DNA of 64,000 nucleotides from Aurantiochytrium sp. KH105 (Eukaryota; Sar; Bigyra; Thraustochytrida; Thraustochytriidae). Both the position numbers and the translations under genes were made by a program. The stretch spans positions 310,001 to 374,000 of the forward strand of contig BGKB01000018.1 in assembly GCA_003116975.1 (NCBI GenBank). Reading direction: 5' to 3'. The number at the start of each line of letters is the position of its first letter. The stretch's first letter is position 1. The notes beneath the pieces are model-generated. The model did not search any database. It had not been told where the DNA came from and was given only the letters and a program-made list of their open reading frames with translations. Below are positions 7,658 through 63,698 of the stretch, one piece after another.

Positions 7658-7726
7658 TTCGCCCCAAAGAAGTGTATGTGCTTGCTCAAGCTGATCTGTG
7701 TCTGCAGGCGCTGCGCCTTTCTGCAA

Positions 7727-8251
7727 GGCTGGCGATCAGACGCCGTGCGGACCAGTGCACGCGCGCAGAGAAGGCCAGCTTCTCGCCTTGCCTGTCTGCC
7801 CGTCTGCCTACCTGCTTGGCAGAGAATCAGGTTGCGTTCTCGAGGAGCAACCCCGCGACGAGTTGCTCGCTCGTCGCAAATGCGTCTCTCGCTTTGCTCG
7901 CTTTTCTTCGAAGCGTGCACGCTTCTACTAAAATGACTACCTAAGTCAAACGAGTTGGCAAAGGTTGGCGCTGCGAACAGAGAGGCACGTTCTGCCTATC
8001 GGCGGCAGGTAAGTATGTCCCTTCCAGTTGCCTTGGCCGCGTCCTGCCAGTGAGATGACCCGCTAATGAGCTAAGAAGCTAGGCAGGGCTAGGCACCGGG
8101 CATTCGTTCTTTCAACGGATCGTTTTCTTTTACTTTTCCTTTTTTTATTTTCTCTCACAAGAATCTTCTTTCAAGTCTTTTTACTTGAAATTTTGATGTC
8201 CAACAGCAACTTGCCCCTTGTTTGGGGGAATTGATCTATTGAAGTCGGGAT
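7727..8251. other. Intergenic region between CFAP210-like and FHA-WDR70 genes
   Basis: About 525 bases, presumably 5' leader/promoter of the CFAP210-like gene plus 3' flank of the next gene. Polypyrimidine stretches near 8110-8190. No gene or RNA recognised. Confidence 0.4.
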
Positions 8252-14009: not shown

Positions 14010-17006
14010 ATGAAGAAGCTGTTCTGCGGACCCCAGGCCAGCAGCGCGGCGGCCTCGACCAAGGTGAACGCCGACGAAGCGCCGGCGCTCAACGGCGCCA
14101 TGGCGTCGTCCTCGGCAACCGCGACGCCCCGCGGAAGCCTGCGCAAGTCGCTCGCCCGCATGTCCAGCGCGGTCTCCGTCTCGTCGAATATGATTACCAA
14201 CCCCAACTTTGAGGAGACCGTCAACCGTGCCATTCTCGGCGTCGTGGTCCTCAACATGACCTACACGCGCCCCTACGAGGGCGGCCAGCGCGGATCTGGC
14301 GGTGCCACCGGCTTTGTCGTCGACAAAAAGCGCGGCATCATCCTCACCAATCGCCACGTGGTCACCGGCGCCCCCATGCGCGCCTTCGCCACCTTTCAGA
14401 GCAAAGAGGAGGTTGAGCTCGAGCCCATTTACTCGGACCCGATCCACGACTTTGGCTTTTTCCGCTTCGATCCGTCCAAGGTTCAGTACCAGGAACTCAT
14501 CGAGATCCCCCTCGCGCCCGAGCGCGCCAAGGTTGGCACGGATATTCGCGTCTGCGGTAACGACAACGGTGAGAAGCTCGCCATTCTCAGCGGTACCCTC
14601 GCCCGTCTCGACCGTAACGCCCCGCGCTATGGTGGGCCGTACTCGGACCACAACACCTTTTACCTGTCTGCTGCATCCAACACCTCGGGCGGATCCTCGG
14701 GATCCCCCGTGCTTGACCGCGACGGCTACGCTGTCGGCCTGAACGCTGGTGGCGCTTTCTTTGCGGCATCCAGCTTTTACCTTCCCCTCGAACGCGTGGT
14801 GCGCAGTTTCGAGTACATTAAGCGCGGCGAGCTACCCCCGCGCCGGACCGTGCAGACGATCATGGTGCACAAGTCCTTTGTCGAGGTAGAGCGCCTCGGT
14901 CTCCCTGACACGGAGCAGGCTACCTTTCGCAAAAAGTTCCCCAAGTCGTCGGGTCTTCTCACGGTCGACGAGGTCATTCCGGAAAGCCAGGCCGAGTCCC
15001 TCGGCATCAAGCCAGGCGACATTCTTGTCAAGATGAACGGAAAGCGCATTTGGGACTTTGTCTCATTCGAAGACATGATTGACTCCTCCGACTCTGTCAC
15101 GCTTTCCATGCGTCGCGGTGTCGAGGACATCGAGTTCACTCTTGATACCGAGAGCCTTCACGACATGATGCCCACGCAGCTCCTCGAGCTCTCGAACGGC
15201 GCCGTTCACACGCTCTCGTACATGCAGGCCGTCAGCTCGCATCGTCCCGTGGGCGGCGTCGTCATCAACACGCCCGGCTACATGTTCAACCGCTCCGGTA
15301 TTCCCGGCAACATCGTCCTCAAGGCCGTCGGTGACCAGCCCACGCCTGACATCCAGTCCTTTGCTTTGGCCATGTCCAAGCTCAATGATCTCGATAAGGT
15401 GAGTCTCACCTTTACCGGCGTCATGGACAAGCACCGCAAGCAAGTCAAGCCCTTCACGGTGGATCGCCGCTGGTTCCCTTGGGTGCGCCGCGAGCGCGTC
15501 TTTGAAAACGGCCAATGGGAATGGCAGGAGCGTCCTTGGCTTTTCGATGGCGATGACTCGAAAGAGGCCGAAGCCGTCGCCGCTGCGAAAAAGGCCGACA
15601 GCGACAAGACGCGCAAGGTGCAAATCCTCGACGACGAGGATCCGCGTCTCTGTGCCGTCTCCTTCGAGTCGCCCATTCCCATCATGGAGATCGAGGCCAA
15701 TTCCTTTATTGGATGCGGTGTCATTATCGACGCCAGCGAGGGTCTCGTGGTCTGTGACCGGAACACGGTTCCTTCCACCCTCGGCAACGTCTCTGTCACT
15801 ATCGGTGGCACAGTCGAGCTGCCGGCGCAGGTGCTTCTCGTTCATCCCATGCACAACCTCGCGCTGATCAAGTACGATGCCAGCAAGGTCGAGGTTGACC
15901 TGGGCGAGAGTGAGGCCGCCCAAATGGGTCTTGGTCTTGACGCCCCGGCGCCCTCGCCTGTCGAGCTCAAGAGCGGCATGAAGACGCGCTTTGTTGGATT
16001 TTCCGGACAGCTGCAGCAGGTTGCCCAAAAGGCCACCGTCACGGTCGTAAAGCACATGCAGTCCGGTACCGCAAGCATGGATGCCATGGGTGACTTTCTC
16101 ATGATGTTTGGCTCGGGAGCGTCCTCGAGCGGAGCCAAGAACCAGATTGTGATTGAACTCGACAACAACATGGACAACATTGGCGGCGTCCTTCTCGACG
16201 ATGACGGTCTCGTGCAGGCCTTTTGGTTCGACTTTTGGGGCTGGAAGACGGGTGTGCCCGCGTCGATCATTTACGACGCAGTCAACCGCTTTCGTGAAGG
16301 CGAGCCGCTCCGTACGCTTGCTGCCGAGCTCGGGACCTTGCATCTGTCCAAGGCCGCTTCCGCCATGGGCTTGTCTGACGAATGGGTCGCCGAGTTCAGC
16401 GCGAGCTCCAAGAACCGCCACGTGCTGAGCGTGTCGACGGTCCTCATCGGATCAAACTCCGAAAAGGTTCTCCAGCCTGGCGACATTATTCTCGCCATTG
16501 ATGACAAGCCTATGATCGACTATCGCGCAGTCGAGCAGGCCACGGCTGACAAGGACGAAGTCAAGGTCACGGTTCTGCGCGACCTCGCCGAGGAAGTCCT
16601 CACCGTGCCCACAACCGTGCTGCCGTACTCTGGCACGGACCGCGTCATTCTCTGGGCCGGAGCGATCATGCAGCAGGCGCCTCTCGATCTCGCTTTTCGC
16701 GGATTTCTTCCCGAAGGCTCGGAGGGCAAGGGTGTGCTTTGCTCTGGCTTGTATGGCGGATCCCCGGCGCACCAGTACCATCTGCGCTCTCATGTCTTTA
16801 TCAATGCCATCAACGAGTCCGAAACGCCGGATCTTGATGCCTTTGCCGAGGTCGTCAGCGGTCTCCCTGACGGGGAGTTTGTGCGTGTCCATACCACCAC
16901 TCTCGAGGGCATCCAGGATGTGTCCACGGTCAAGCTTGATGACCTTTATTGGGAGCTTCGCCAGCTTCGTTATGATGAGGATTCCAACGACTGGGAGTAC
17001 GTATAA
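14010..17006 (+). CDS. NMA111: NMA111/Deg7-type HtrA serine protease with PDZ domains
   Basis: 998 residues, almost exactly the length of yeast Nma111 (997). The catalytic triad of the first trypsin-like domain is visible: His116 in LTNRHVV, Asp147 in PIHDFGFF, and Ser230 in GGSSGSPV. A PDZ domain follows (VIPESQAESLGIKPGDIL, about residues 320-375). The second half contains a degenerate protease-like region with no triad and a further PDZ-like segment (LQPGDIILAIDDKPMIDY, about residues 825-845), as is usual for Nma111/Ynm3 and plant DEG7. Yeast Nma111 is a nuclear pro-apoptotic protease; DEG7 is chloroplastic. No targeting peptide is obvious here beyond a Ser/Ala-rich N-terminus, so location is open. 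No intron is seen. GID8 follows 238 bp downstream on the same strand. Confidence 0.93.
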   Translation: MKKLFCGPQASSAAASTKVNADEAPALNGAMASSSATATPRGSLRKSLARMSSAVSVSSNMITNPNFEETVNRAILGVVVLNMTYTRPYEGGQRGSGGATGFVVDKKRGIILTNRHVVTGAPMRAFATFQSKEEVELEPIYSDPIHDFGFFRFDPSKVQYQELIEIPLAPERAKVGTDIRVCGNDNGEKLAILSGTLARLDRNAPRYGGPYSDHNTFYLSAASNTSGGSSGSPVLDRDGYAVGLNAGGAFFAASSFYLPLERVVRSFEYIKRGELPPRRTVQTIMVHKSFVEVERLGLPDTEQATFRKKFPKSSGLLTVDEVIPESQAESLGIKPGDILVKMNGKRIWDFVSFEDMIDSSDSVTLSMRRGVEDIEFTLDTESLHDMMPTQLLELSNGAVHTLSYMQAVSSHRPVGGVVINTPGYMFNRSGIPGNIVLKAVGDQPTPDIQSFALAMSKLNDLDKVSLTFTGVMDKHRKQVKPFTVDRRWFPWVRRERVFENGQWEWQERPWLFDGDDSKEAEAVAAAKKADSDKTRKVQILDDEDPRLCAVSFESPIPIMEIEANSFIGCGVIIDASEGLVVCDRNTVPSTLGNVSVTIGGTVELPAQVLLVHPMHNLALIKYDASKVEVDLGESEAAQMGLGLDAPAPSPVELKSGMKTRFVGFSGQLQQVAQKATVTVVKHMQSGTASMDAMGDFLMMFGSGASSSGAKNQIVIELDNNMDNIGGVLLDDDGLVQAFWFDFWGWKTGVPASIIYDAVNRFREGEPLRTLAAELGTLHLSKAASAMGLSDEWVAEFSASSKNRHVLSVSTVLIGSNSEKVLQPGDIILAIDDKPMIDYRAVEQATADKDEVKVTVLRDLAEEVLTVPTTVLPYSGTDRVILWAGAIMQQAPLDLAFRGFLPEGSEGKGVLCSGLYGGSPAHQYHLRSHVFINAINESETPDLDAFAEVVSGLPDGEFVRVHTTTLEGIQDVSTVKLDDLYWELRQLRYDEDSNDWEYV

Positions 17007-38055: not shown

Positions 38056-40521
38056 ATGGACGCCCTGTACGGACGCGCGCCGCCAGAGTCGCGCAAAACA
38101 GACTGGGCGCGTTCTCAATTACTCGTGCCTCGGCGAGAACGTGGACTCAAACCGCTTGTTTCGCAAGATGGCGATATCGACGATGAAGAAGAGGAAGAGC
38201 GAATTGTACGTGAGGCAGAAGCTGCGAATGCAAGGCTTCTCGCAAGCGGCATGGATCGCTGCCCGACGGGTCGGCTTCCCGGGCTTGGAACTGTCAAGTC
38301 TGAGCACGTTTTGATCAAACAACGCCAGGCCGAAGCGCGAGCAGAGGCCTTGAGACGCAGAGAAATGGCAGAAAAGGGCTTTGTGCAGTGGCTCAAGCGT
38401 AAACAGGAGCAAGGTCAAATTCTTGCTCCTCAAGCTGCGGCTCAAGAGGAAGAGAAACAAGCTCAAGAGCAGGCGAAGCGAGCGGAGCGACGCCGTCTCG
38501 CCGACGAGCGTTTCAATGAATGGCGCAAGGCAAAAGACCAGCAACGTCGCGAGCAGCGCAAAAAGGAACGCGAGGCACGCGCAGACGCGCTCGCAAGTAT
38601 CATGGCAGTGGTGTCTCCGGGTAACAGTCAAGCGAATGCGAGCCCTGGACCCAGTTCTTTAAATTCTCCCAAATCTCTGATGAGCCCCATCGATGAGCCA
38701 AGAGAGCAGACGCGTGGCACTCCGCACAGCAATCAGCGCGCAAAGAGTCCTCTTGGACGTCTTAAAGCTGCTGACATGAAATGGGCGCGCGTTTATCTGG
38801 ACAAAGCCCTGCCAAGACCTCCCGGAGGCGCTGCTCTAGTAGGGTCAGACGTTGGCTCTCCGCAGGACGGTGAGCGAACGCTTCTTCGCTGGTGTCTACA
38901 GCGATTCACGCGTTGGCTGTCGAAACCGCAGCATCGAGTCAATCTTGAAGACAGCTTGCGACGCGCTGATCATGTTGGAAACGGCCAGCTCGATGAAGAA
39001 ACGACGATGTCGCTCCTTCGCGAATGTGGCTTCAAGGTTGACGCCTATGAGAGCCGCCTGCTCTTTAGACATATTTCAACAAAGTACCACGGCCAGTGCG
39101 AGCGCCTCATCACGCGTCTCAATGCCAAGCGGGAAGCAAGGGCCGCAAGCCAGCGTGAAGCAAATCTCAGGCGCTCTCCTAGTCCTCGCAAGCGACGACC
39201 TCGGCACGCAAGCGCAGCAAGACGAAAAGCCGCAGCTCGAAGAATCATGCAAGCTCTCAACGGAGACACGGGCAGCGACCTCGAGGACATTTTGGAGCAT
39301 GCAGCAGAAAATGCCGCCGAAGCGCTCGCCAACGCCACCGACCTACGCTCGCGTCTGGACAACTTTCTGGCGACATCCGAGAAGCACCACATGTCTGAGC
39401 TCCTCGACAAGGACCTTGCAATGCTCTGCAGTTCGTTCATGGAGGACGAAACTGCAGACCATCCAAGGTCTGTTTCGGGCTTGCTCTTTTTCGTTCGCGA
39501 AATGGCACAGGATAGTGAAAACAGAAATTTTGCTGGTGAGGCGCAGGGCCCCGGGGAGAAGGCCTCTCTCGAAGTGAAAATCTCCGAGAATGTGCGAGAG
39601 CCGCTTCGCGAATTCTTCCGTTCGATGGGCTCCATCCCGACCTGCGCACGGGTTCGAGAAGCGCTCACTCTCTGTCACGAGTCCTCGACGATCGAGGGGA
39701 CCGTTCTCGTCGAGATTCTTGCCGCGCACGGGGAAGACTTTACGCGGGGCTTTGACGATGCGAACGAGCAAGTCACCGAGAGGTCATTTGTTGATTACTT
39801 TGCCGACAAGTACGATCAGTACCAAAAGGAGAGCATGAACATCCAAAGTCCATCGATGCGACCGCGCTCGCCTCGACCCCGGACTTCACGAAATCGTTCC
39901 CGTAAAACTGGCGGTGGACGAGGCGGTGACAATGGTGGCGCCAAGCGGCGTGCAGGCACCTCTCCGAGCAGGATTCGCGTGGTGCGCCCGCCAAGGCACC
40001 AGCTGGAGGCCAAGGCCGAGCGCGAGCGTCTTACGCGGGCCACGTATACGTCCGGGGAGGAGGACCTCGTCGAGGTGCGGCCAAAGCCAAGTCCTGCGTA
40101 CGTGGCCTTCCAGACTCTGCACGAGCGCGCCAAATCCGCTGCCAGGAGTCTCGGCTCGGTGACCTCTGCCCAGGTCGCCGAGGTCCTCAACCTGGAGCGG
40201 CCTCCGAAGGACGTGATGCGCACCATCGGCGGCGCCTGCCTCCTTGTCGGCGTGGCGCCCACCTGGAAGCACGCGCGCGGGCTCTTCCGGCACTGGCCCA
40301 ACTTCCTCGCCTTCGCGTCCAGCGTCACCACCACGCATGTGCCCAAGTTCGACGCCGCCACGCTGCTCAGACTTCGCGCCGCCGCCGCGCCGCTCCCCGT
40401 CCCCGAAGGCCCCGCCGCGGCCCCGCTCCCGCGCCTCGCGCTGGTTCTGCACCGCTGGGTCGCCGCCATGCTCGCGCTGCTTGAGAGCGCCCGGGACGCG
40501 CCCGCGGCGTCCCCCCCTTAG
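38056..40521 (+). CDS. Coiled-coil protein with EF-hand-like segment and dynein-stalk-like C-terminal domain
   Basis: 821 residues from ATG 38056. The N-terminal ~190 residues are charged helix with a repeated Phe-x-x-Trp pattern (KGFVQWLKRK, ERFNEWRKAK) as in MAP9/CCDC-type microtubule proteins. About 290-350 contains an EF-hand-like helix-loop-helix (HVGNGQLDEETTMSLL). The middle is Arg/Ser-rich. Residues about 685-815 (TSAQVAEVLNLERPPKDV, CLLVGVAPTWKHARGLF, then LHRWVAAMLALLES) resemble the dynein heavy-chain stalk/microtubule-binding region, with its Pro-Pro-xx-Val, LLG-x-Pro-x-Trp and xxWVxAM landmarks, but the AAA motor is absent. A microtubule or axoneme role is inferred. The gene is divergent from CFAP161 and tandem with the gene at 40829. 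Confidence 0.65.
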   Translation: MDALYGRAPPESRKTDWARSQLLVPRRERGLKPLVSQDGDIDDEEEEERIVREAEAANARLLASGMDRCPTGRLPGLGTVKSEHVLIKQRQAEARAEALRRREMAEKGFVQWLKRKQEQGQILAPQAAAQEEEKQAQEQAKRAERRRLADERFNEWRKAKDQQRREQRKKEREARADALASIMAVVSPGNSQANASPGPSSLNSPKSLMSPIDEPREQTRGTPHSNQRAKSPLGRLKAADMKWARVYLDKALPRPPGGAALVGSDVGSPQDGERTLLRWCLQRFTRWLSKPQHRVNLEDSLRRADHVGNGQLDEETTMSLLRECGFKVDAYESRLLFRHISTKYHGQCERLITRLNAKREARAASQREANLRRSPSPRKRRPRHASAARRKAAARRIMQALNGDTGSDLEDILEHAAENAAEALANATDLRSRLDNFLATSEKHHMSELLDKDLAMLCSSFMEDETADHPRSVSGLLFFVREMAQDSENRNFAGEAQGPGEKASLEVKISENVREPLREFFRSMGSIPTCARVREALTLCHESSTIEGTVLVEILAAHGEDFTRGFDDANEQVTERSFVDYFADKYDQYQKESMNIQSPSMRPRSPRPRTSRNRSRKTGGGRGGDNGGAKRRAGTSPSRIRVVRPPRHQLEAKAERERLTRATYTSGEEDLVEVRPKPSPAYVAFQTLHERAKSAARSLGSVTSAQVAEVLNLERPPKDVMRTIGGACLLVGVAPTWKHARGLFRHWPNFLAFASSVTTTHVPKFDAATLLRLRAAAAPLPVPEGPAAAPLPRLALVLHRWVAAMLALLESARDAPAASPP

Positions 40522-40654
40522 ACCACTTTCTAAGCACGAGAAAAAACTTTTTCCCGCTCGCGCGCCCTTGGGCCCTTTTATTCCCCGCTTCCCAGGCGCC
40601 GCTTTTCTGGCGCAGACCCGGATCGACCGAGAGACCGCTGCGCTCGCGAGGCGC

Positions 40655-40686
40655 GGCTCGGCTCGGCTCGGCTCGGCTCGGCTCGG
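40655..40686. repeat. (GGCTC)n pentanucleotide repeat
   Basis: About six units, about 145-175 bp upstream of the start codon at 40829. Confidence 0.95.
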
Positions 40687-40778
40687 CTTGGCGCAGCGCA
40701 GCTTGGGCTCCAGCGCGGCGGCGCTCGCGCAAGGGCCGAGGTCTCGAGAGACGCGGCCGACCGACCTGGCAGACGCAT

Positions 40779-40804
40779 CGACTCGACTCGACTCGACTCG
40801 AGTC
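40779..40804. repeat. (CGACT)n pentanucleotide repeat
   Basis: Five units immediately upstream of the start codon at 40829; the complementary unit (GAGTC) recurs at 29854-29871. Confidence 0.95.
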
Positions 40805-40828
40805 GTCCCGGCGTGGAAACTCGGGACC

Positions 40829-43800
40829 ATGGCCGGCGACGGGAAGGCCGGCGAGGCGCGCGACGCCGAGACCGCCAGCGACGGCGACGAGGCCGCTAGG
40901 TCCTCCGCCCCCGCGTCCGCCGCGGCCGCAGCAGCGCACGTGTCGAGAAAGAGGCCGAGAGGCCAAGCCCGCCCCGGACCGGCAGCGGCGAGGGGGACAC
41001 CGCGCAAGCCGTCCCGCCGCGAGCTCGGCTATGGCGTGTCCGTGCAGGACCCGTACACAGAGGCGATGGCTGACGAGGACGACAACGAGGGCACCGAGCC
41101 AGGTTCAAATGCTTCACAGCAGGAGCAGCAGCAGCAGCAGAGCCTCGCAGAGACAGAGCCCGTAGAACATGCGCGGAGGCTGTACGATGTCTCGCAAGGC
41201 GAAGATATTCTCGTGCTTGAGGAAGTCTTGGACGCCTTGCAGTCGGCTCAACAGGTCTATGATCTGGATCATGTGGAATGGCTCATCACGCTTTGCCAGC
41301 GGGCCGAGGAGAGACGATTGGAGCGCATCCAGGAGGAGGCCATGCGACTTGTCGACGACTGGGCCCGAAATCTGCAAACCTACATCCCCGCAGACGGTGT
41401 CCCCGTCCCTGATCCGCTCCGAGACGAGCTCATCGACAGCGCTGTTACCTTCCTCGAAGATGATCAGGTCAGCGACCGCTCCATCGACGAAAAGGTACAA
41501 TTTCTTCTCGAAAAGGGCCTCAATCGGACGGAGATCCGCATCGCCTGTGCTCAGGTCGGCATCGAGGCCCCGAGCTCCCTCCTATACGCGGAACCGACAC
41601 GGAAGCAAATGGTTGACAACGGTGCAGCTTTCTTGACTATGGAGGACGTCAAGGGGAAGTCGTTGCAGGAGAAACTTAGCTTTTTGCAATCCAAGGGCTT
41701 GTCCAAAGCTGAAATGATGCGTGCTTGCGAGGTAGCCCAAGTTAATCCAATGCCCACGCCGGAAGACCTTGAAAATCTTGAAGAGTACCATGAACGTGCT
41801 GCACGTGAGGACATGATCAAGAATGGCGCCATTTTTCTCAATCACAAGTCGATGGCTGCGAAAACGATGCGCGAGCGTCTCGAATTTCTCAAGTCCAAGG
41901 GCATGACGGCAACCGAAGTGGCCAAGGCCTGTGAGCGCGCCGGTGTCACCCTCGATGACGATCTTCGCAAAGAGTTTGCCACGCCCTCTTCGCCCTCTTC
42001 CGCACGCGAGAAAACTAAGGCGAAGTCGCAAGAACAAAACCACCGCAGTCCCGGCATGGCCGCCACGCAAGAGGCCGCAGCCGCTGCAAGCGACGATAAC
42101 GATGGTGACGACAGCGAGTCCGCTGCGTCTTCTGTTCGAGAAGCTATGGTGCAAAAGGGATTCACCTTTCTCACGCATCAGAGCGTGCAGGGCAAACCTA
42201 CAGCAGAAAAGCTTGCTTTCCTTCGCCAAAAATCGCTCACGGAGGCGGAAATCAAAGCTGCCTGCGAAAAGGCAGGGGCAACGTACGCAGCGCCAGACGG
42301 CGAGGGCAACGCCAATAACAGTGCCAACGTGAAGAAGGCGGTGGCGTTCCTGCAGCACCCCAGCGCGCAGTCGAGACCCCTTCGCGAGAAGATTAGCTAC
42401 TTGTCCTCCAAAGGTCTGAGCAAGGACGAAATTGAAGAGGCCTGCCGCCAAGTAGGCCTCGTGAAAAGTGGTAGTACCATGAACGCGACGAGTGCTCAGA
42501 TCCTGTCTTCTTCAAAGGATGGTGGTGACGGTGGCGAGACTGATGCTAAGCAAGAAGGGGCCGACGAGAGTGACGCGCATGGTACCAATTCGACCTCTTC
42601 AACCAAGAAACCAAGCCCCTCGAGGGCAAGCGATGATCGGAAGAGCGACGCGGATGACCTTGAGTCAAGAAGGCGCATTCGGCAGGGCGAGCGCTTCCTC
42701 CAGCATGCAAAGACGCAAGAGCTCGACGAAGAAGCGAAAGCGAGCTTCCTTCTGGGAAAGGGCCTCAGCTTGGACGAAGTTGAAACCGCTTTTGCGGTGG
42801 CCGGGCTTCCGTGGGACGCGGACAAGATGAAAACCGTAGCACCCGAAGACCAGAGCAAGGCACGCATGGAGCGTGCTGAGCGCTTTCTTCGTGAGCAAAT
42901 GGACAAGATTTCCGAGGGTGAAACGCTCGACGTGGCCAAGCAAGCTCTCTTCTTGCGACAGCAAGGTATGTCCGAGACCGAGCTAACGTCAGTCTTCACG
43001 GATCTTGGACTCGATTTCGATGCAGACAAACTCGATCAAGATATGGTGGAAATCGGCAAAGTCTTTGTCACACGTGCGGGACCCACCGAAGAGGCGCGCA
43101 CCTTTTTGCGGGAAAAGCATAATCTCACGGATTCACAAATCGAACGCGCTTTCGACGGCCGTCAAGAGGATCGCATTGAGCGCGCCCGGCGCTTTCTACT
43201 CAGCCCACGCGCCGTACGCACACCACTTGCCGACCGCATTCGTTTTCTTCGAGAGTCTCAAAAGCTCGACACGGATCAAATTAAGCAGGCTCTTGCGCTT
43301 GCCGGACTAGAGGCCACAGAGGCAGAGATTCTCGCTGCCGGGGACGGCGTCGACGCCAAAGTTATGCAAGGCGCAGCGTTCTTGACGAGCCCGGCTGCAG
43401 CTAGCGCGAATCTCGCTGAACGCAAGGAGTTTTTGCGGTCCAAGGGCCTGAGTGAGGCCCAAATCAACCGAGCCTTTGAGCGCGCCGGACTGGACCCGAG
43501 CAAGGAAGGCCCACAACGACCCGAACTTGATCCCCTCGTGCTCCAGGGTCGATCATTTCTGAAAAATCGCAAGACAGCCGATGCATCGCCGGCCGACCGA
43601 GCAAGCTTTCTTCGCAATAAAGGACTGAGCGAAGAACAGGTTCGAGCTGCCTTTGAACTCGCTGGACAGCCTCCGCCTCCTCTTCCCTCCGAAAGCCCTG
43701 CGGAAGGAGGGACAACATCAGCAAAGGTGCCAGTCAAGGGTGCAGGCGGAAGTGGTGCGGAGGACCTCCTCGTGGAGCAAGCTGCGAAGTTTTTGGTGAA

Positions 43801-46528
43801 TGAGCAGGCTGCCTCTGCTAGTATTGGCGAGCGCAAGGCTTACCTTCGTAGCAAGGGATTGTCCGACGCGCAAATCGAGGCAGCTTTTGCAAAGGCAGGA
43901 CTTACGACAGGCCCTGAGGACGACGTGCGGGAGGACATGGTGGACCGTGGAGCGCGCTTCCTCAAGGACCCCAACACAGCTGACACGCCGATTGAAGACC
44001 GCGTCGACTTTCTCAAGCAACAAGGTCTCACAGAAGATGAAGTTCTCCAGGCTGCAATGCGCGCGAAAGTCAGCCTCGTGCCTTCGCATCTCTGTACAAT
44101 TCCCTCGAAACAGCTCAAGGCCGACAGCGTAAAAGTGGACCCTGACACGGAGCCGTCCGGACGGGCTCTCCAAGGCGCCATGAATGCCATGGTGGCGCTT
44201 TTGCCGACAATTGAAAGCCGTGCAGTTCCGTCCGCTCGCTTTGGGTCTCGTGCTCTGATGCTCCTCGCCACGTGTCTCTGCCGTTGCCGTCCCGCGCGAG
44301 TCTCGGCGGCATGTGTCGCCTTTAGCTCCCTGAGCTTACAAAAGGGCCTGCGAAACGCTCAGCTACCGAGCGAGGGCGCAGCTGATCAGGACGTTCAAGG
44401 TCTTCTTGAGGCCTGCGCCGAGCTTGCCGCGCGCGCGGCGCAAATTAACCGCTTCGCCAAGGAGGGCCTTGACCAAATGCAGCAGGTTAACCTGCATTTC
44501 ATCAAGTGCGAAGACGTGATTACCGCCGTGCTTCAATTCTGGCGCTCAACTCGCTCAACTGATATCGGCATTGACCAGGGCATGATCTTGGCACGGGCTG
44601 TCCATGGCCATTTCAGCCCGGCAGCAGCCTTTCAACCCATGAAGGACGCCACCGCACCGGCGATTGCCAAGGTCATCGAGCACATGTCTATCGAAAGGCA
44701 TGGTCTTGCGCCTGTGGCCGCATCTTTTTTTGCAGCAGGGCTTTTGCGAGGTGCTCCGGACTATGCGTGGGCCAATGATGTGGAGAAGAGTCCGCAACCT
44801 GGCCTCGAGGCTGCTTTCCGCCGGCTTGCACGGAAGAGCGCCCAACTGAAGGATATGGTTATGTCGTCTGGCGTCGGGTGCGCTGTCGTCTACGCGGATA
44901 CGCAGCTCTCCTGGAGTTCCCCAATGTTGTGGGCGGTCGCGGAGTGCCTCTTTAACGAAGCCCTTGGTGGTTTCTTCCTTGCAGAGGATGCTACCTCGGT
45001 GGACTCCCGCGCGCGCAGTGCACAGCGTTTCACCGAACGAGAAATTTTCAAGCTTGCCCCGCAGCTGGTCTCCCTTGTGATGAGCAAGCTCTCTGGGTCG
45101 CAGGCTAGCTGGGCAACACGTCGTATGCACGCCTTTGCAACGCACGTGCACCGTCTCTGTCGGGATGACGAGGGTCTCACGGGCGTCATTGCGAGAAGAA
45201 CGATTTTAGCGCTGTATGGCACGGGCGAAGAAGCCGCGGCGTCTTCTGCTGACGGTGACGATTCTTCTGCAGGCGAGGGAGACACAGATTCTGGCGGCTC
45301 GCCACCTCCCGTGGATCTTGGTAACCATGCTGAGCTCGCGCGGCTCCTCCAAATGGGCTACTTGACTGTGGTGATTATTGGCACAAAAACCGCCCCTCTC
45401 ACGGATGATTGGATGCTGATTTGGGATGCGATGGCGAGCTTAAATGCCTTTCAGGTCAGAGTTCAAGACACGGTCGACCTCGAGGATCTACTTAAGCGCA
45501 TGCTTCGAATGGAAGGCGACCGAGGCGCGCAGATCCTTATGGACTTGCTTGGCACTCGAGACGACGAAGTGTATGACGATGAGGAAGACAATGGTGAGGA
45601 GGAGAACATGGACAAGAACGACGGCGTCAAGGGTGACGCCGCCTTGAAATTGCGAGAGCTCGGACAAAAGCGGGCAGGACGACAGACGCCCCGGATTCGT
45701 TGGTCCACTGATCCGCGAGCAAAGCCTGCCAAGGGGAGCTCGAAGGACGTTCTGGATCCGCGCAAGCAACTCTTTGACTGGATTTTCGCTGGTCGTCTCG
45801 AGTGTCTCCTTGATACAGGTGAAGCGTGGCTGCATGACAAGGTCCGCACGAGCGCTTCGCTGGTCTCTCTCTTGATCGATGTTGCTGTTGCGCACCCGTT
45901 CGTGCATTTGAACATGCGGGCTCATCGATGGATTACGGATATGCTGCACGCGTATGCCGACGCCCAGGACAGTGCCGTTTTGGCCAAGGCAAATCCTCTC
46001 GACCCGCCACCACTGGGACTCGCGATCGTTCCAACTTATATTGATGCATCAATCCAGGCGCACCCGCATGCAACCACCACACGCACTCTTTCGTTTGCGA
46101 TTGGGTCAACCTTGTCTGCTCTCGCTGCCCAACCCGATGAGCGTGCACAACCTCTGGCGCTGATGTGTCTTCAACGCTTTATGCTCGCTCTCGACGACCG
46201 CATTGCTGGCCGTCCCAAGTACAAGCAGGATGGCGCCATCTTGGCGAGGATCCTTCTTGCGGCTCTCAAAGCAGTTCCTCTGCCTGTGTTTCCTCTGGCG
46301 CTCGACCAGACTGTAGACATTATTGAGCGGGCACCCATGTCAGAGAGCATCACTCTAGATGTCGGAGGAGATTCGTCTTCTTTGGAAGGGGAAAGCGCCA
46401 AGCTCACTCGCAAAGAGCTCGTTGACCTCATGTTTAATGCCATTCAAACGACGGATGATCAGCCCAGGCGCACTCTCCTCGCGAAAGCTTACCTTCGCTT
46501 GGTGCAATCGAGCTCATGCAGATTATGA
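40829..46528 (+). CDS. Protein with 13 tandem PEX14 N-terminal-like domains, large helical C-terminus and PTS1-like end
   Basis: 1,899 residues from ATG 40829 (context GGGACCATGG), one uninterrupted exon. After a basic, then Gln-rich N-terminus, residues 199-1083 hold thirteen ~47-residue modules starting near 199, 259, 326, 437, 498, 614, 679, 737, 780, 842, 900, 978 and 1034. The best ones (for example 842-889: AAFLTSPAAASANLAERKEF then LRSKGLSEAQINRAFERAG) follow the human PEX14 N-domain pattern AVKFL...FLKKKGLTDEEI closely, keeping both Phe-Leu positions and the KGL turn. In PEX14 that three-helix domain binds WxxxF/Y motifs of PEX5 and a PEX19 helix at the peroxisome membrane. Residues 1100-1899 are helical with acidic linkers; I do not recognise them. 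The chain ends SSSCRL, where CRL fits the PTS1 consensus. There is no transmembrane segment like that of PEX14. Confidence 0.82.
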   Translation: MAGDGKAGEARDAETASDGDEAARSSAPASAAAAAAHVSRKRPRGQARPGPAAARGTPRKPSRRELGYGVSVQDPYTEAMADEDDNEGTEPGSNASQQEQQQQQSLAETEPVEHARRLYDVSQGEDILVLEEVLDALQSAQQVYDLDHVEWLITLCQRAEERRLERIQEEAMRLVDDWARNLQTYIPADGVPVPDPLRDELIDSAVTFLEDDQVSDRSIDEKVQFLLEKGLNRTEIRIACAQVGIEAPSSLLYAEPTRKQMVDNGAAFLTMEDVKGKSLQEKLSFLQSKGLSKAEMMRACEVAQVNPMPTPEDLENLEEYHERAAREDMIKNGAIFLNHKSMAAKTMRERLEFLKSKGMTATEVAKACERAGVTLDDDLRKEFATPSSPSSAREKTKAKSQEQNHRSPGMAATQEAAAAASDDNDGDDSESAASSVREAMVQKGFTFLTHQSVQGKPTAEKLAFLRQKSLTEAEIKAACEKAGATYAAPDGEGNANNSANVKKAVAFLQHPSAQSRPLREKISYLSSKGLSKDEIEEACRQVGLVKSGSTMNATSAQILSSSKDGGDGGETDAKQEGADESDAHGTNSTSSTKKPSPSRASDDRKSDADDLESRRRIRQGERFLQHAKTQELDEEAKASFLLGKGLSLDEVETAFAVAGLPWDADKMKTVAPEDQSKARMERAERFLREQMDKISEGETLDVAKQALFLRQQGMSETELTSVFTDLGLDFDADKLDQDMVEIGKVFVTRAGPTEEARTFLREKHNLTDSQIERAFDGRQEDRIERARRFLLSPRAVRTPLADRIRFLRESQKLDTDQIKQALALAGLEATEAEILAAGDGVDAKVMQGAAFLTSPAAASANLAERKEFLRSKGLSEAQINRAFERAGLDPSKEGPQRPELDPLVLQGRSFLKNRKTADASPADRASFLRNKGLSEEQVRAAFELAGQPPPPLPSESPAEGGTTSAKVPVKGAGGSGAEDLLVEQAAKFLVNEQAASASIGERKAYLRSKGLSDAQIEAAFAKAGLTTGPEDDVREDMVDRGARFLKDPNTADTPIEDRVDFLKQQGLTEDEVLQAAMRAKVSLVPSHLCTIPSKQLKADSVKVDPDTEPSGRALQGAMNAMVALLPTIESRAVPSARFGSRALMLLATCLCRCRPARVSAACVAFSSLSLQKGLRNAQLPSEGAADQDVQGLLEACAELAARAAQINRFAKEGLDQMQQVNLHFIKCEDVITAVLQFWRSTRSTDIGIDQGMILARAVHGHFSPAAAFQPMKDATAPAIAKVIEHMSIERHGLAPVAASFFAAGLLRGAPDYAWANDVEKSPQPGLEAAFRRLARKSAQLKDMVMSSGVGCAVVYADTQLSWSSPMLWAVAECLFNEALGGFFLAEDATSVDSRARSAQRFTEREIFKLAPQLVSLVMSKLSGSQASWATRRMHAFATHVHRLCRDDEGLTGVIARRTILALYGTGEEAAASSADGDDSSAGEGDTDSGGSPPPVDLGNHAELARLLQMGYLTVVIIGTKTAPLTDDWMLIWDAMASLNAFQVRVQDTVDLEDLLKRMLRMEGDRGAQILMDLLGTRDDEVYDDEEDNGEEENMDKNDGVKGDAALKLRELGQKRAGRQTPRIRWSTDPRAKPAKGSSKDVLDPRKQLFDWIFAGRLECLLDTGEAWLHDKVRTSASLVSLLIDVAVAHPFVHLNMRAHRWITDMLHAYADAQDSAVLAKANPLDPPPLGLAIVPTYIDASIQAHPHATTTRTLSFAIGSTLSALAAQPDERAQPLALMCLQRFMLALDDRIAGRPKYKQDGAILARILLAALKAVPLPVFPLALDQTVDIIERAPMSESITLDVGGDSSSLEGESAKLTRKELVDLMFNAIQTTDDQPRRTLLAKAYLRLVQSSSCRL

Positions 46529-47092
46529 AAATCTGTATGGTTTCGGGTTCGTGTACACCTATATAGATTGCGAAGGCCTCTTGGGACACGGGCAAGCTGC
46601 TCTCGGTAGGAGGCCATGCTCAAATCAAACTCAAGAATTAGAACAACGCAAAGTGAATGTCATATTTTTTTTATCGTAGATCGTCGCGATTGTCGTGGAG
46701 AGTTACGGTGGCTCGCAAGGCGTGCGAAAGACACAAAGGAACTGAGACTTGCCAGGCTTTATAGAAAACAAAAAAGTTGTTTGTTACTAGATGTGAGTGA
46801 CCTCGGCAACCTCGTACGAAACGATGTCAATTTTGTTTGACAGGTCATTGCGCTTCGCCCCATACGCTTGAGTCAACCGACAAGGCACATCATTTCTAGG
46901 TGTCTACTTGATTTATTCAGATAAATGGTCAACGTAAGAATGAAACTCTGTGAAGGCCCAAGCTCAACCTCAAGCTCGCACACACTGCGAGCCCGCGCTG
47001 AGCGAAAGTGGGACGTACTTAACATCGGAGAATGCAAAATTAGTGCCAGACGAGAAAAAAGGAAATTCGAAAGAGAAAATGAAGCATAGAAA
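46529..47092. other. Convergent intergenic region
   Basis: 564 bp of AT-richer sequence between convergent stops; no gene or repeat of note. Confidence 0.5.
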
Positions 47093-48139: not shown

Positions 48140-49406
48140 GATGTCTCCTCCCTTTTCTCTGCCCGAGGCGGTCCTGCTTGTCGTCCTCGGCGTCTGCGTC
48201 AGCGTCGTCGACGTCAAGGCCCTCCTGCCCCAGGCCGCGCTCGGCCTCGCGGTCCTCGCCCCGGATACCGCCGCTGCTGCCGCCGCCGCCGCGCCGAGTC
48301 CGCGCGCAAGCATCAACCGCCCGCCCGACCGCGCTGCCGCTCTCGTCGTCGCCGTCGCCGTCCGCCTCGATCGCGATCTGCTCTGCGTCGCTCTGCGCCT
48401 CGTTCTCTCTCTGGCTGGGCCAGCTCGGCACGAGCGGCCTCGGTATCCGAGGGGGCTGCGCCCGGCGCACACCCCTGGGAACGGGAACGGCAACCTCGCA
48501 AGCGAGGCTGGCTGGTGAATACGAGGACTGCGCCGGGGAGGGCAGCAGCAGATCGTGATGGTGGAGGGCTGTGGCGGAGAGAGCTGGAGAACGTAGAGAA
48601 AGCGGAGCGAAGGGAGAGAAAGCGGAGCGAAGGGAGAGAAAGCGGAGCGAATGATGAGTTTGGTGATTCATGGCTTTCCACAGATTGAGGCACACGCGAA
48701 CCCCCGAAAGAGCAGACCCTCTACTTTTCTTCTCATTTCTTCATCATCTATCTGCGTAGGCAGGCTCACTGGTTTTTATAAAAAAAAATTATCTTATCAA
48801 GCATGTTTTGACGTCTTTGTATACTTCTACAGCAACATGGCCCTATCGGAGTGCGTATTGTGTACGCCAGCCAGCGATTTCATGCTTGCCGCCGCTTTTT
48901 CTTTTTCATCGTAATGCTTGGGAATATTCCAGGCTCACGAGAAAGTTGCCGTCGCGTTTGACCCGGACGAATCATCCAGCTCTCAATGTCAATCCTTCAC
49001 TTTGGCTTCCTTCCTCCCTTCGAATGTAGTGTAGTACACACATCGAAACTACCTATCCGTTGAAATTTTTACGAGCCTTCTACAACTCACAGACTCGACC
49101 AACCTGAGCAGCCCGCTTGGTGACGCTGCATCCTACGGAGAAAGGACGGGTAATGAATAGCAAACAGCGCGGAGTCCCGAGAGTCTGTTGCGCGAGTGTG
49201 TGTGCGCGCGCCGTGGTTGGTGCCGGCAGTATACCCCTGGTTGGATCTGGCTGCAACGCGAGAGATCACGGTCCTGGTATCGGGTCCTGAACAGTTCAAG
49301 AGCTAGAGGCAGGGCGCGCAAGGGTCGATCGAAGCGTGGGCGCGACTCGGGACCTCTAGGCTGCTTGCACTACGCAAGAGATCATCTGCGCAAGAGTGCA
49401 CGCGCA
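48140..49406. promoter_or_regulatory. Divergent upstream region (GS-hydroquinone reductase / kinesin-like)
   Basis: 1.27 kb between divergent starts. The left part is GC-rich and may encode a presequence of the reductase; 48595-48652 is a 20-bp tandem repeat; the right part is AT-richer. No gene recognised. Confidence 0.45.
48595..48652. repeat. 20-bp tandem repeat, about 2.9 copies
   Basis: Unit agagaaagcggagcgaaggg repeated nearly perfectly three times, in the divergent upstream region. Confidence 0.93.
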
Positions 49407-52400
49407 ATGAATGTGGAGGTCTTGGTCCGCCTCGTAGCAGGGCCGCGGAGCAAGAGGCGAGGGTCGCGCGTGGGCGATGACGCAAGTCTCTTGAGCGATG
49501 ACCTGCTGCACGACGAGCTCAAAGAAGACCAAGCATCGTCCAGAGGCAGTCACAAAAACACATGCGTGACGGCGTGCAGCTCTACCGCACTGCAGTCCGG
49601 CTTCAAGGTGTTTGATGTCGATGCTGTTCATGAAGTTCCCGCGCGAGTCGCTGAGAGTCATGCAGGCGCACACATGGATAACATTTTCAACAATCTTGTC
49701 CGTCCGGTTGTAGAGGAAAGCCAGCGCACGCAAAAAACGGGGCTCATTCTTATGCAGGGCTGCGCGCACAGAGACGATTTTGCCTGGATGCTTCGCGAAC
49801 TCGTTGTCACTGGTCTACGCATGGGAGGTCCTCATGCAGCCGTCCGCCTCTCTGGCACAGAGATCTGGAACGAAACCACGCGCGACCTCATTTCCCCTGA
49901 AACTCAGGAAGAGCATGTTCTAGCATCCAAGGGCTCAAGCGTTAAAGTTCGTGCGGCCGAGGATGTGACGGGACTTGTCTCACTCTTGCAAAAACGACGG
50001 AAGCGCATGCGTGGGCACAAAGGTTTTCTTTCGCATCTCGTCGTGACGCTGTCATGGGATGACGAATGCTCAATCGACCTCGTGGACCTTGCCGACCCGC
50101 AAGGGGGCGAAGACAAGGATCAACGCAACATCAAAAAGTCTCGCCTGGCCCTCGAAAAGGTACTTTCCGCGCTCAACCAGCCGTCGACGCTCGCGCGCGG
50201 AGGTCATGTTCCTTTTCGCGACTCCAAACTTACACGCGTATTGCAGCCAACTCTGCTCCAGCCGTCGCGTGTCGTCCTCGTGGCGACGGTCAGTGACGCC
50301 GAGGCAGACTCGATCGGCACGCTCGGTACGCTCGAATTCTGTAATAACATTCGACGGTCCAAACGCGCGCGTCGCACCTCGACGATCTCGACTGCGAGCT
50401 CGCATGGATTCAATGGTATTATGGCCGGCGATGTGCATAGTGTTGCCGGTTCAGAGTATTCCAAGCAGTCGTTCTCCACATTGTGCAGTTCCGACGGAAA
50501 GCCACTCGGAATGATGATCGATGAGAGCCGCGATGCGACTGCGGGGCCAAGCGATGGGAGCAGTCATGGCGGACGATCAAGTCGCAGAAGCAGCCGCATG
50601 TGCAGCACCGCTGCCGCCTCGCGAAGAAGGAGCACAGGGGACATGAGAAGTAGCGCCGCTCGACGCTTCCATGGTGGCCAAGAGGAAGCCAGTGCTGCGA
50701 GCAGTGCATCGAGTGCGTTTTTGACCGCCACGAGATCAACGGTCTCGACTCTCGCCTCGGAATCAGGAGCGTCTGCAGAGCCCGGAGACTCGTTCGGCCA
50801 GCTGCAGCGCGACAATCGTGCAAAGGCACGACTCATCAACATCCTCGCGTCCGAAACTGTCGGCAAAGGGGACGCTATCAAATCTCTTGTCCAAGAGTCA
50901 CGCGACAAGCAACAAGCCCTCGAGCTCGCGCAAGAAGAACTTGCCGCCCAACGCGAGATTATCTTGCAAATGCGGGGCCAGATTGAGGAGCAGCAGCTGC
51001 AGATCGAGCAACTGCAAGAACATGGAAGGCGAATCTCGGTTCGCTCGGCGTCTTCGGAGACCGCAGCTTTGAGCGCTCATCGGGAACTTGAAGACCGCGT
51101 TGCAGCCATGCAAAAAGAGAACGAAGTCCTCGTGGCACAGGCTGCGACGGCGGCAGAGGAGTTCACCACCAAACTGCAGCGCCAGAGTGTGGAGATCGAG
51201 GCCCTGCGCGCTGATCTAAGCCTCGCCAAGGCTGAAGAAGCAAACGTGCGTATTCAGCACGACGCAGAGCTGTCGGCGCTGCAAGAAGCATTCAAGGAAG
51301 AGAAGACGGGGCTGAAGCGGGAGGCCATCAATCTCGCGCACGAAGTTTGCACGCTTGAGAAAGACCATGACCGATTTCAGATTGAAGCTGCTGCATCGGC
51401 GCGAGCAGCTCTATGCGCCGAGATGCGAGCAGTCGGTGAGGCCCGGGCCTGGGCTTTGAGAGCGCGGTGTATTCGTCAAGGCGCTGTTTTATTGCTCAAG
51501 GCAGCCTTGCGATCACATGACATTTTGCGCAGCGATCTGCGGACCGCGCTTGGAGCAGCGGCCACGTTCCGCCTTGCAGCTGCTCTCGGAGGCGCAAGCG
51601 CACCAAAGACGGAAACGTCGGCTACCTCCGAGGAACACGACCTGCAGGCGGATCTGCAAAACCAAATTAATCGCCTGGAGACAGCACTGCGAGAGCGCGA
51701 TGCGACCATTGACTCCTTGGAAGCCTTTCTTCTTAGCCCGCCCAGTACGCCGTTTGAAGGCGGCGTGCAATCGCTTCAGAGTTCCCAGGATGGCGGCTTC
51801 GTTGAGTCTCCCGACGTTCGTGGTAGTGCAAGCGAAGACTGGGCAGAGATTGCGCGTCTTCGCGCAGAGCTCGAGGCTGCACGACTGAGATCGGATCGTG
51901 CACAGGATGACAAGCAAAGGGTTCTTGAAGCCCTCGAGCACAAAAATGGAACAATCTCTCAGCTTAGCGCAGAGCGCAACACACTTGCAGAGGAAAAGGA
52001 CAAAATCATGCGCGAGGCTTTCAAGATTGTCGCCTGGCTGCAAGGCGAGGACGACCGCAAGTCCAAGCTCCTTGCATCGTTGCTCAAGGAGAGCGGTAAT
52101 GCGCAATCTGGGGGCATTGTATCGCTCGCCCCGTTGTTGAATCCGTTCTCTGTACAGCAGTACGAGCGTGAAGATTCGGCATCGCGAGCCGATCAGGACC
52201 ACGAGCAGTCAAAAAGTCTCGGCGAGGAACATGACAGCGAACGTTCTGTTGAGGAGAAATCTTACCAAGATGAGCAAGAGGACCAGCTTGCAACGAGTAC
52301 GGATCAGCAACTGAGTGATGACGACGAATTTTCAACACCGCCAGCTCCTCCGACGCCCGTCTATCGTCCCTCTAGGGCTCTCCCGATGCCGTCCCCTTTG

Positions 52401-52415
52401 GCTTCTCTCGATTAA
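49407..52415 (+). CDS. Kinesin-like protein with degenerate motor domain and coiled-coil tail
   Basis: 1,002 residues from ATG 49407, where kinesin similarity starts (MNVEVLVRLVAGP, cf. VxVxVRVRP). Residues about 1-325 follow the kinesin fold: FKVFDVDAVHE, DNIFNNLVRPVVEE, SLLQKRRKRM-type alpha3, IDLVDLADP, NIKKSRLALEKVLSALNQ, HVPFRDSKLTRVLQPTL, VLVATVSD and GTLEFCNNIRR. The nucleotide motifs are not conserved: the P-loop position reads LMQGCAHRDDF (residues 115-125) instead of GQTGSGKT, the switch I SSRSH is HKGFLSH, and switch II DLAGSE is DLADPQ. A Ser-rich linker follows, then coiled coil from about 470-700 and again about 820-880, with an acidic tail. ATP hydrolysis is therefore unlikely; a microtubule-binding or scaffold role is inferred. 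Confidence 0.82.
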   Translation: MNVEVLVRLVAGPRSKRRGSRVGDDASLLSDDLLHDELKEDQASSRGSHKNTCVTACSSTALQSGFKVFDVDAVHEVPARVAESHAGAHMDNIFNNLVRPVVEESQRTQKTGLILMQGCAHRDDFAWMLRELVVTGLRMGGPHAAVRLSGTEIWNETTRDLISPETQEEHVLASKGSSVKVRAAEDVTGLVSLLQKRRKRMRGHKGFLSHLVVTLSWDDECSIDLVDLADPQGGEDKDQRNIKKSRLALEKVLSALNQPSTLARGGHVPFRDSKLTRVLQPTLLQPSRVVLVATVSDAEADSIGTLGTLEFCNNIRRSKRARRTSTISTASSHGFNGIMAGDVHSVAGSEYSKQSFSTLCSSDGKPLGMMIDESRDATAGPSDGSSHGGRSSRRSSRMCSTAAASRRRSTGDMRSSAARRFHGGQEEASAASSASSAFLTATRSTVSTLASESGASAEPGDSFGQLQRDNRAKARLINILASETVGKGDAIKSLVQESRDKQQALELAQEELAAQREIILQMRGQIEEQQLQIEQLQEHGRRISVRSASSETAALSAHRELEDRVAAMQKENEVLVAQAATAAEEFTTKLQRQSVEIEALRADLSLAKAEEANVRIQHDAELSALQEAFKEEKTGLKREAINLAHEVCTLEKDHDRFQIEAAASARAALCAEMRAVGEARAWALRARCIRQGAVLLLKAALRSHDILRSDLRTALGAAATFRLAAALGGASAPKTETSATSEEHDLQADLQNQINRLETALRERDATIDSLEAFLLSPPSTPFEGGVQSLQSSQDGGFVESPDVRGSASEDWAEIARLRAELEAARLRSDRAQDDKQRVLEALEHKNGTISQLSAERNTLAEEKDKIMREAFKIVAWLQGEDDRKSKLLASLLKESGNAQSGGIVSLAPLLNPFSVQQYEREDSASRADQDHEQSKSLGEEHDSERSVEEKSYQDEQEDQLATSTDQQLSDDDEFSTPPAPPTPVYRPSRALPMPSPLASLD

Positions 52416-61425: not shown

Positions 61426-62126
61426 CCTTCCTTTATCACAGCGCGGCAGCTTCTACACTGCCTGCGCTGTCTGCTCGCGCCGTTCGCACACGCGAGCTGC
61501 AGCTGCTTGATTTGCGTGCGCTCTCAAAGAAAGGTGTGCACCGACCGATCGCCGCTGCCGCAAAAAGAGAGAAAAAAGAAAAAAAGAATAGAAAAGAAAA
61601 AAAGAACCGTAAACCTAACCTGGCCCTAACCGGTTTGACCGTTTCGTTGCGGTGCGTTGCGTTGCGTTGCTGCAAGGTCTTCATTCATTCCTACTAGAAC
61701 TTATGATAAACAGCGCGAGTGCGTGAGTGCGCGGCTGCGATAGAGAACGAGAAGGGAGAAACCCAAGAGGCAGGCAGGCACAAGAAAGAAAGAGGCCAGC
61801 CGGGCCTGCCGACCCAGCATAACTATTCGGGGCGAGGGCATGGCTGAGACGCGGCGCTGCTTGGCCGCCCAGAACTGAGCGCCAAGGGCATCGGGAGCTC
61901 GCGTCGCGCGCGGCGAACAGAAGCAAGGAGGAGAGAGGCGAAGGCGAGAGCGACTTCTGTCACGACCCGAATCGTTTGCCGTGTGCCTGAAGGATCTGTC
62001 ACAAAGGCTGCGCGAGGAAAAGAAAGACGTTGCTGCGGCCCGACGCTGTCAAAGGCTGGTTTAGTAGCTTGTTCTAGTCCCTCGACCTAGTTGCCGAGGA
62101 CGCGTGACGATTGGCTGCTGGCTGAG
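61426..62126. promoter_or_regulatory. Divergent upstream region (coiled-coil unknown / IFT52)
   Basis: 701 bp between divergent starts; contains a purine-rich stretch (61559-61604) and GCGTTGC repeats near 61650-61672. No gene recognised. Confidence 0.45.
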
Positions 62127-63698
62127 ATGAGCACCAACAACACAATAGCCGCGGAGGCGAATGTTGGCAAGACGATTCTGATTGATGCAGCAAAGCGCGA
62201 AACGCACCATGGAAACAATGGTTTGAAGCGTCTTCATCGCCGACTGCGCAACGCGTACAAGGTGGAGGTCAACAAGGAGCCTCTGACCGCAGAGGTGCTC
62301 ACGGATGTGTCGCTTATCATTTTTGGTGGTCCGCGAGAAAAGTTTTCCTCTGCAGAGTTCGCAGTTCTCAAGCAGTTTTTGGACCAAGGAGGATCTGTAC
62401 TCTTCATGCTCGGCGAGGGTGGTGAGGAAAAGTATGGTACGAATGTGAACTTTTTGCTGGAGGAGTTCGGAATCTCATTCAACAATGATAGCGTCGCACG
62501 AACCGTGTACTACAAGTACCTGCACCCAAAGGAAGTTTTCATTGGTAATGGCGTGCTGAATCGCGGAATGGCCGAAGGCGCCAAGTTATCGTCTGGGTCT
62601 GGACCCGGCAAGCGTGGAAGCAGCAAGATCGACAAACGGCGCGCAAAGCAGGCTAGTTCCTCGTTGGCCAGCAAATCAAAGAGGAGGGATGACAGCGGCA
62701 AGGAAAATGGCGGGCTTGAGTTCGTGTATCCGTATGGCAGCACACTCAACGTTCAGAAACCAGCCGTGGCGTTGTTGTCGTCTGGACACATTTCTTACCC
62801 TCTCAACCGCCCAGTTGTCGCCTGCGCGCAAACGAGTGGCTCAGCAACCTGGGAGAAAAAAGGAGCTGGACGCATTGGCGTCGTTGGGTCCGTTGAAATG
62901 TTCTCCGACAACTGGCTGACGCACGAGGACAACGAAAAGGTTTTTGATGTCCTCAGCAAGTGGCTCCTGGGCGAGGGGGGTGTCATTCTTGATCACGCAG
63001 ATGCAGAGGACCCGGATGTAAGCGATTACCACCACGTTCCGAACACGGAGGCTCTCGCCGAACGGCTCCGCTCTTGTTTGCAAGAAGGCGAGCCGCTTCC
63101 TCAGGACTTCACAGATCTCTTTGCTGAGGATGTTTTCAAGTTTGACACCAACCTCATCCCTGAGGCCGTTGCCTTGTACAAGACGCTCAGTGTCAAGCAC
63201 GAACCTCTGACGCTTATCCCGCCCCAGTTCGAAGCCCCGCTTCCTCCCTTGGTGCCAGCGGTCTTCCCTCCGGCGATGCGCGAGCCTCCGCCCCCTGCAC
63301 TCGACCAGTTTGACCTTGACGAGCACTTTGCATCGGAGCGCTTACGTCTGGCTCAGCTCACCAACAAGTGCGAGGACGACGATCTCGAGTATTACGTCCG
63401 TGAAAGCGGTGAGACCCTCGGCGTGGTCCGTGAAATGGGTGTGGACCCTGAAGATCTCAAGGGCGAGCATGGTGCCAAACGCATTCTCGAGTTTATGCTC
63501 CGCGAGCTTGTCCGCTTTAAGAAGCTCAATCAAGATGAGCCCGCGGGGCACGGTGAGAATCAACCTCTTCGAGCGAATCGCGAGGAACAAGTTTCCTTTT
63601 CGCAGCCAAAGCGCGGCGTCAGTGCCAGTTCGAATGCCTCGTCCTTCTACAATATCGAGGAAAGTGTCGGTGCGGAGTACAAGGAAGGCAAAGAATAA
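62127..63698 (+). CDS. IFT52: Intraflagellar transport protein IFT52 (IFT-B core)
   Basis: 523 residues from ATG 62127 (MSTNNTIAAEANVGKTILID); an upstream open stretch to 62091 lacks an ATG-supported extension. The N-terminal GIFT domain carries LIIFGGPREKFSSAEF and VLFMLGEGGEEKYGTN, YYKYLHPKEVFIGNGVLNRG, then FVYPYGSTLNVQKPAVALLS and PLNRPVVA, all IFT52 hallmarks. The middle and C-terminal parts keep DAEDPDVSDYHHVP, LTLIPPQFEAPLPPL, PAVFPPAMREPPPPAL and ARLAQLTNKC-like sequence (LRLAQLTNKCEDDDLEYYV). A basic Ser/Lys-rich linker of about 40 residues (about 160-205) is longer than in the human protein (437 aa). IFT52 is a central IFT-B1 subunit needed for cilium assembly. Confidence 0.95.
   Translation: MSTNNTIAAEANVGKTILIDAAKRETHHGNNGLKRLHRRLRNAYKVEVNKEPLTAEVLTDVSLIIFGGPREKFSSAEFAVLKQFLDQGGSVLFMLGEGGEEKYGTNVNFLLEEFGISFNNDSVARTVYYKYLHPKEVFIGNGVLNRGMAEGAKLSSGSGPGKRGSSKIDKRRAKQASSSLASKSKRRDDSGKENGGLEFVYPYGSTLNVQKPAVALLSSGHISYPLNRPVVACAQTSGSATWEKKGAGRIGVVGSVEMFSDNWLTHEDNEKVFDVLSKWLLGEGGVILDHADAEDPDVSDYHHVPNTEALAERLRSCLQEGEPLPQDFTDLFAEDVFKFDTNLIPEAVALYKTLSVKHEPLTLIPPQFEAPLPPLVPAVFPPAMREPPPPALDQFDLDEHFASERLRLAQLTNKCEDDDLEYYVRESGETLGVVREMGVDPEDLKGEHGAKRILEFMLRELVRFKKLNQDEPAGHGENQPLRANREEQVSFSQPKRGVSASSNASSFYNIEESVGAEYKEGKE

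Follow-up and report, generated by a model that had tools for sequence, protein, structure and literature searches.

A predicted multivalent array of PEX14 N-terminal-like domains in a protein of Aurantiochytrium sp. KH105

What might a single protein do with thirteen copies of a domain that PEX14 carries once? The question is raised by a gene in the window analyzed here, a stretch of 64,000 nucleotides of Aurantiochytrium sp. KH105 (GCA_003116975.1, contig BGKB01000018.1, 310,001-374,000, forward strand). The start codon of this gene sits in an ACCATGG context, and its features are collected in Table 1. Just 5' of the start lie two simple repeats, GGCTC (8.6 units, 40650-40692) and TCGAC (5.6 units, 40778-40805). 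Elsewhere, the window contains genes encoding a probable retroelement product that combines an integrase core domain with an H2C2 zinc-binding domain (1922-5578, minus strand), an HtrA-like protein with a trypsin-like domain and PDZ domains (14007-17003, plus strand), the intraflagellar transport protein IFT52 (62091-63695, plus strand, E 7e-103), a kinesin (49161-52412), and a TPH-domain protein (6287-7735, minus strand).

Table 1. Features of the array gene (positions in the window)
Feature	Positions	Strand	Evidence or description
Single-frame CDS, 1899 aa + stop	40829..46528	+	uninterrupted ORF
N-terminal extension, aa 1-195	40829..41413	+	low-complexity, basic stretch, Gln run
Pex14_N module 1	41414..41566	+	genome scan, single-module scan, leave-one-out
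Pex14_N module 2	41594..41749	+	genome scan, leave-one-out
Pex14_N module 3	41801..41950	+	genome scan, leave-one-out
Pex14_N module 4	42134..42283	+	genome scan, leave-one-out
Pex14_N module 5	42314..42463	+	genome scan, leave-one-out
Pex14_N module 6	42662..42814	+	genome scan, leave-one-out
Pex14_N module 7, divergent	42848..43015	+	leave-one-out E 2.4e-8; absent from genome-scan list
Pex14_N module 8, divergent and shortened	43031..43156	+	leave-one-out E 2e-6; absent from genome-scan list
Pex14_N module 9	43160..43312	+	genome scan, leave-one-out
Pex14_N module 10	43349..43498	+	genome scan, leave-one-out
Pex14_N module 11	43523..43675	+	genome scan, leave-one-out
Pex14_N module 12	43757..43906	+	genome scan, PDB match, leave-one-out
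Pex14_N module 13	43922..44074	+	genome scan, leave-one-out
C-terminal region, 816 aa	44078..46525	+	no recognised domain
C-terminal tripeptide Cys-Arg-Leu, PTS1-like	46517..46525	+	fits [SAC][KRH][LM]

Detection and properties of the modules

The first-pass annotation had described about thirteen tandem PEX14-N-like modules and proposed a search with the Pfam family Pex14_N (PF04695). The whole protein scores 306.6 bits with this family (E 1.6e-93), the gathering cut-off being 23.2, and none of the 11 further Pfam families found up to E 10 exceeds its own cut-off. In a six-frame scan of the genome, 11 stretches of the array gene score over the Pex14_N cut-off; scanned one by one, 12 of the 13 modules match the family at E<=1. 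The profile of all thirteen modules finds 13 stretches in the protein, scoring 43.7-76.3 bits, the maximum in 200 shuffles being 3.8 bits. Leave-one-out profiles recover every module (13/13, E 9.5e-24 to 2e-6), with modules 7 and 8 the weakest. In the module alignment, module 7 carries a 5-residue insertion on the C-terminal side of the first Phe-Leu, and module 8 is separated from module 9 by one residue. Each of the 12 PDB entries that the array matches at E<=1 carries the name PEX14 (best E 1.7e-4). The leave-one-out recovery and the genome scan thus bear out the modular reading and the first-pass count of about thirteen, and at the level of sequence these are thirteen genuine PEX14 N-terminal-like domains in one protein. 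A recent tandem expansion at the DNA level was considered and rejected: Tandem Repeats Finder reported three rows in 40500-46600, all of them short simple repeats.

The helix-1 Phe is kept in all thirteen modules of the alignment, the second aromatic position is occupied by Phe in 11 and by Tyr in 2, and 9 modules retain a nearby Lys that the other 4 have lost. We take these three positions to line the ligand pockets of PEX14; the conserved aromatic positions may also serve the domain core. An array serving as a spacer or structural rod, most of its modules having lost ligand binding, would accord with the divergence of modules 7 and 8, the loss of the nearby Lys, and a retention of Phe for the core alone, but both aromatic positions of the presumed pocket are kept in every module, and we consider such a rod very improbable. 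Since each module has the two aromatic positions, we favor the prediction that the modules form a multivalent binder of aromatic motifs. The earlier proposal of a multivalent platform stands in part, namely in the homology of the modules to the PEX14 domain and in the multivalent layout. According to the available part of the source, the PEX14 N-terminal domain is a three-helix bundle that binds WxxxF/Y motifs (PMC12925559). Intramolecular binding was also considered, but self-binding via WxxxF/Y is unsupported: the array protein contains no strict copy of the motif, and WMLIW at aa 1528 is all that it offers.

In the open-licence literature searched (PEX14 or Pex14_N, and stramenopile and labyrinthulean peroxins), no description of a Pex14_N array was found among the part of the matches listed, in agreement with the first-pass annotation, which knew of no described protein laid out in this way. 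Similar proteins may exist unremarked in eukaryotic sequence databases. The available part of a comparative PEX survey, whose eukaryotes include a diatom and Phytophthora, assigns the Pex14_N domain to PEX14 and PEX33 and mentions no array (PMC8172628), and the diatom Phaeodactylum is reported, in the part of the source at hand, without an identifiable PEX14 (PMC3178647). A viral contig collection yielded no relatives of the array or the C-terminal region, and a prokaryotic one no relatives of the array; both searches reach close relatives only, and neither is informative on eukaryotes. The aligned modules vary too much among themselves to serve as a search pattern. The domain is known; the thirteen-module architecture appears to be new.

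Second copy, selection, and the regions outside the array

A second copy of the array gene is located on contig C73, where the frame is open across 1902 codons. The two copies (1899 and 1902 residues) share the same residue at 1850 of the 1899 aligned codons, and their DNA identity is 96.9%. Genome loci occur in apparent pairs across contigs (C18/C73, C97/C200, C4/C187), a pattern like that of a phased diploid assembly. Because the other loci in such pairs have similar scores or sequences, we infer that the array gene and its C73 copy are alleles.

Between the copies, dN/dS is 0.118 for the whole gene, 0.059 for the modules (9 nonsynonymous and 41 synonymous changes in fixed 43-codon windows), 0.294 for the linkers (16 and 17, respectively), and 0.114 for the C-terminal region (18 and 49). 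The modules are more constrained than the linkers both in the fixed 43-codon windows, which assign a few residues of module 7 to the linker (Fisher p 0.006), and with profile-defined borders (modules, 11 changed and 48 silent codons; linkers, 14 and 9; p 0.0004). Constraint on the modules and on the C-terminal region is not different (p 0.28); both are under constraint. Given equal constraint on the C-terminal region, it does not follow that the array is the functionally most important part of the protein. A pseudogene is ruled out, since both copies are open and have the low whole-gene dN/dS given above.

No domain was recognised in the N-terminal extension, and aa 110-198 have no Pfam match over the cut-off. 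The extension is probably helical from about aa 110 onward, and the basic stretch read from the translation at the N-terminus is NLS-like. The C-terminal region yielded no PDB sequence matches up to E 10 and no Pfam families over the cut-off; HEAT repeats had no Pfam match in this region or in the whole protein. At E <= 0.01, its only matches in the genome are the array gene and the C73 copy. Examined for a transmembrane span of the kind that follows the domain in PEX14, the protein shows two hydropathy peaks, 1.93 and 1.66, both within its C-terminal region; the putative membrane span in the PEX14 of this organism reaches just 1.28. Amphipathic-helix z-scores are 3.5 for aa 1105-1445 and 0.6 for aa 1631-1899; the array, intended as the positive control, gave no helical signal (z -1.5), and therefore little weight is placed on this periodicity test.

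PTS1-like tail, peroxisomal machinery, and candidate ligands

The C-terminal tripeptide fits the loose PTS1 consensus [SAC][KRH][LM]. This tail was spotted post hoc and not predicted beforehand. Both copies end in SSSCRL, and they are so similar that the shared CRL tells little about conservation. No consensus tail occurs in 15 further large ORFs from the window, the expectation from composition being 0.39%. An SKL end would weigh more than CRL does. Neither of the two papers checked lists CRL as a PTS1, and it is not among the tripeptides ending the matrix enzymes of this organism (12 ends). The sample of these enzymes comprised 14 loci over the acyl-CoA oxidase, malate synthase, and isocitrate lyase family cut-offs, with 12 visible C-termini; two loci of the malate synthase family (L032 and L033, E 4e-18 and 5e-18), whose ORFs run off the locus, were left out of the count. 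Ten of the 12 proteins end in AKL or SKL (6 acyl-CoA oxidases, 2 malate synthases, and 2 isocitrate lyases), and two low-scoring matches to the isocitrate lyase family (L036 and L037, E 4e-9 and 5e-9) end in RLAQ. Judged from these predicted C-termini, the organism uses PTS1 import.

Human PEX14 has an Nin-Cout topology, with the N-terminus inside the peroxisome, as stated in the available part of the source (PMC8172628); the matrix is thus the usual place of PEX14 domains. By analogy, the CRL tail and the orientation of human PEX14 would point to the matrix at least as much as to the cytosol. As a cytosolic scaffold, the array could gather PEX5, PEX19, or other aromatic-motif proteins, or could tether peroxisomes to each other or to the cytoskeleton. 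The same domain and selection data fit this scaffold, the long low-complexity N-terminus gives no hint of a membrane or matrix protein, and the CRL tail is perhaps there by chance. However, a cytosolic scaffold leaves the topology of the PEX14 N-terminus and the PTS1-like tail of both copies unexplained, and we regard it as unlikely, though by no means negligible.

A separate gene (C97/C200) encodes a one-domain PEX14 with the domain near the protein start and, by our own reading, a putative membrane span. The domain scores 60.4 bits with the 13-module profile, inside the range of the modules themselves. PEX19 is present in the genome, and the Pex2/Pex12 family has six loci there, which seem to form three pairs. 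A TPR peptide pattern led to a PEX5 gene (L020 on C4, 1071-3799), the last exon of which matches solved PTS1 receptors with E 8.4e-55. Because all these components are also present, the array protein is an extra protein. A genome search for PEX13 gave no match anywhere, from which absence does not follow.

In the approximate gene model, the features of the PEX5 N-terminus are an early Cys, a single strict WxxxF/Y motif (WINDF), and one FAAEF; the last exon contains no strict WxxxF/Y. Before the TPR domain there are many other Trp-containing stretches, several of them starting with AW, and looser motifs, for example WAGQM and WAHEM, might be additional ligands. For human PEX5, the available part of the source counts seven WxxxF/Y motifs plus one LVAEF (PMC8086558). 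With thirteen domains facing one or two receptor motifs, as counted in this approximate PEX5 gene model, the human ratio would be reversed. In the parts of the descriptions available, a single PEX14 domain meets many PEX5 motifs, and the array protein turns this ratio around beside an ordinary PEX14. Under selection as it is, the array represents a natural test of the role of multivalency in peroxisomal import.

The domain could also have been co-opted beyond peroxisomes and bind unrelated aromatic-motif proteins, for example in the nucleus, on microtubules, or in the flagellum. The PEX5 of this organism has few strict WxxxF/Y motifs to fill thirteen modules; this, the basic N-terminal stretch, and the large constrained C-terminal region without a known family match are consistent with co-option. 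The modules, however, still closely resemble the domain in the PEX14 of this organism and retain the aromatic positions, and the protein has a PTS1-like end. We hold co-option to be improbable, but worth keeping in view.

A possible task in PEX5 handling and likeness to known peroxins

We tentatively prefer a soluble, multivalent PEX14-type array that binds PEX5 as part of the peroxisomal import machinery, with a weakly assigned matrix location and a PEX8-like task; this reading is plausible rather than probable. Each domain would dock onto an aromatic motif of the disordered PEX5 N-terminus, and one array would thereby hold many PEX5 molecules. The CRL tail might carry the array into the matrix, where it might catch arriving PEX5 and help to pass it to the Pex2-10-12 exit ligase. 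The basic, NLS-like N-terminus and the single strict WxxxF/Y in the PEX5 exons read speak against this preferred reading. The more specific proposal that a thirteen-headed array inside the peroxisome captures PEX5 from the matrix side, with the multivalency on the capturer and not on the receptor, and that this PEX8-like activity arose independently outside fungi, seems quite unlikely to us.

Among known systems, PEX14 has an N-terminal domain homologous to the array modules. It carries one such domain near its start, whereas the array protein has thirteen, the first of them at aa 196; no other part of PEX14 was recognised in the array protein, and the organism's PEX14 is encoded by a separate gene. 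The fungal PEX14 paralogue PEX33, as presented in the available part of the survey, is an additional PEX14-related peroxin beside PEX14 (PMC8172628), and the array protein is likewise an extra PEX14-related protein beside PEX14. No array is mentioned for PEX33 in that part of the survey, and the array protein differs from it in its far larger size and distinct C-terminal region.

In the available part of a preprint, fungal Pex8 is described as a solenoid of HEAT repeats on the matrix side; it ends in a PTS1 and directs the N-terminus of Pex5 to Pex2-10-12. A structural analogue is reported there for Arabidopsis (PMC13015374). Compared by description and not by sequence, fungal PEX8 is a HEAT-repeat protein, whereas no HEAT repeats were detected in the array protein. 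The resemblance would be one of working only: a possible matrix position, a PTS1-like end, and possible handling of PEX5. If the array acts in the matrix, it would bear on how organisms without a fungal-type PEX8 pass PEX5 to the exit ligase.
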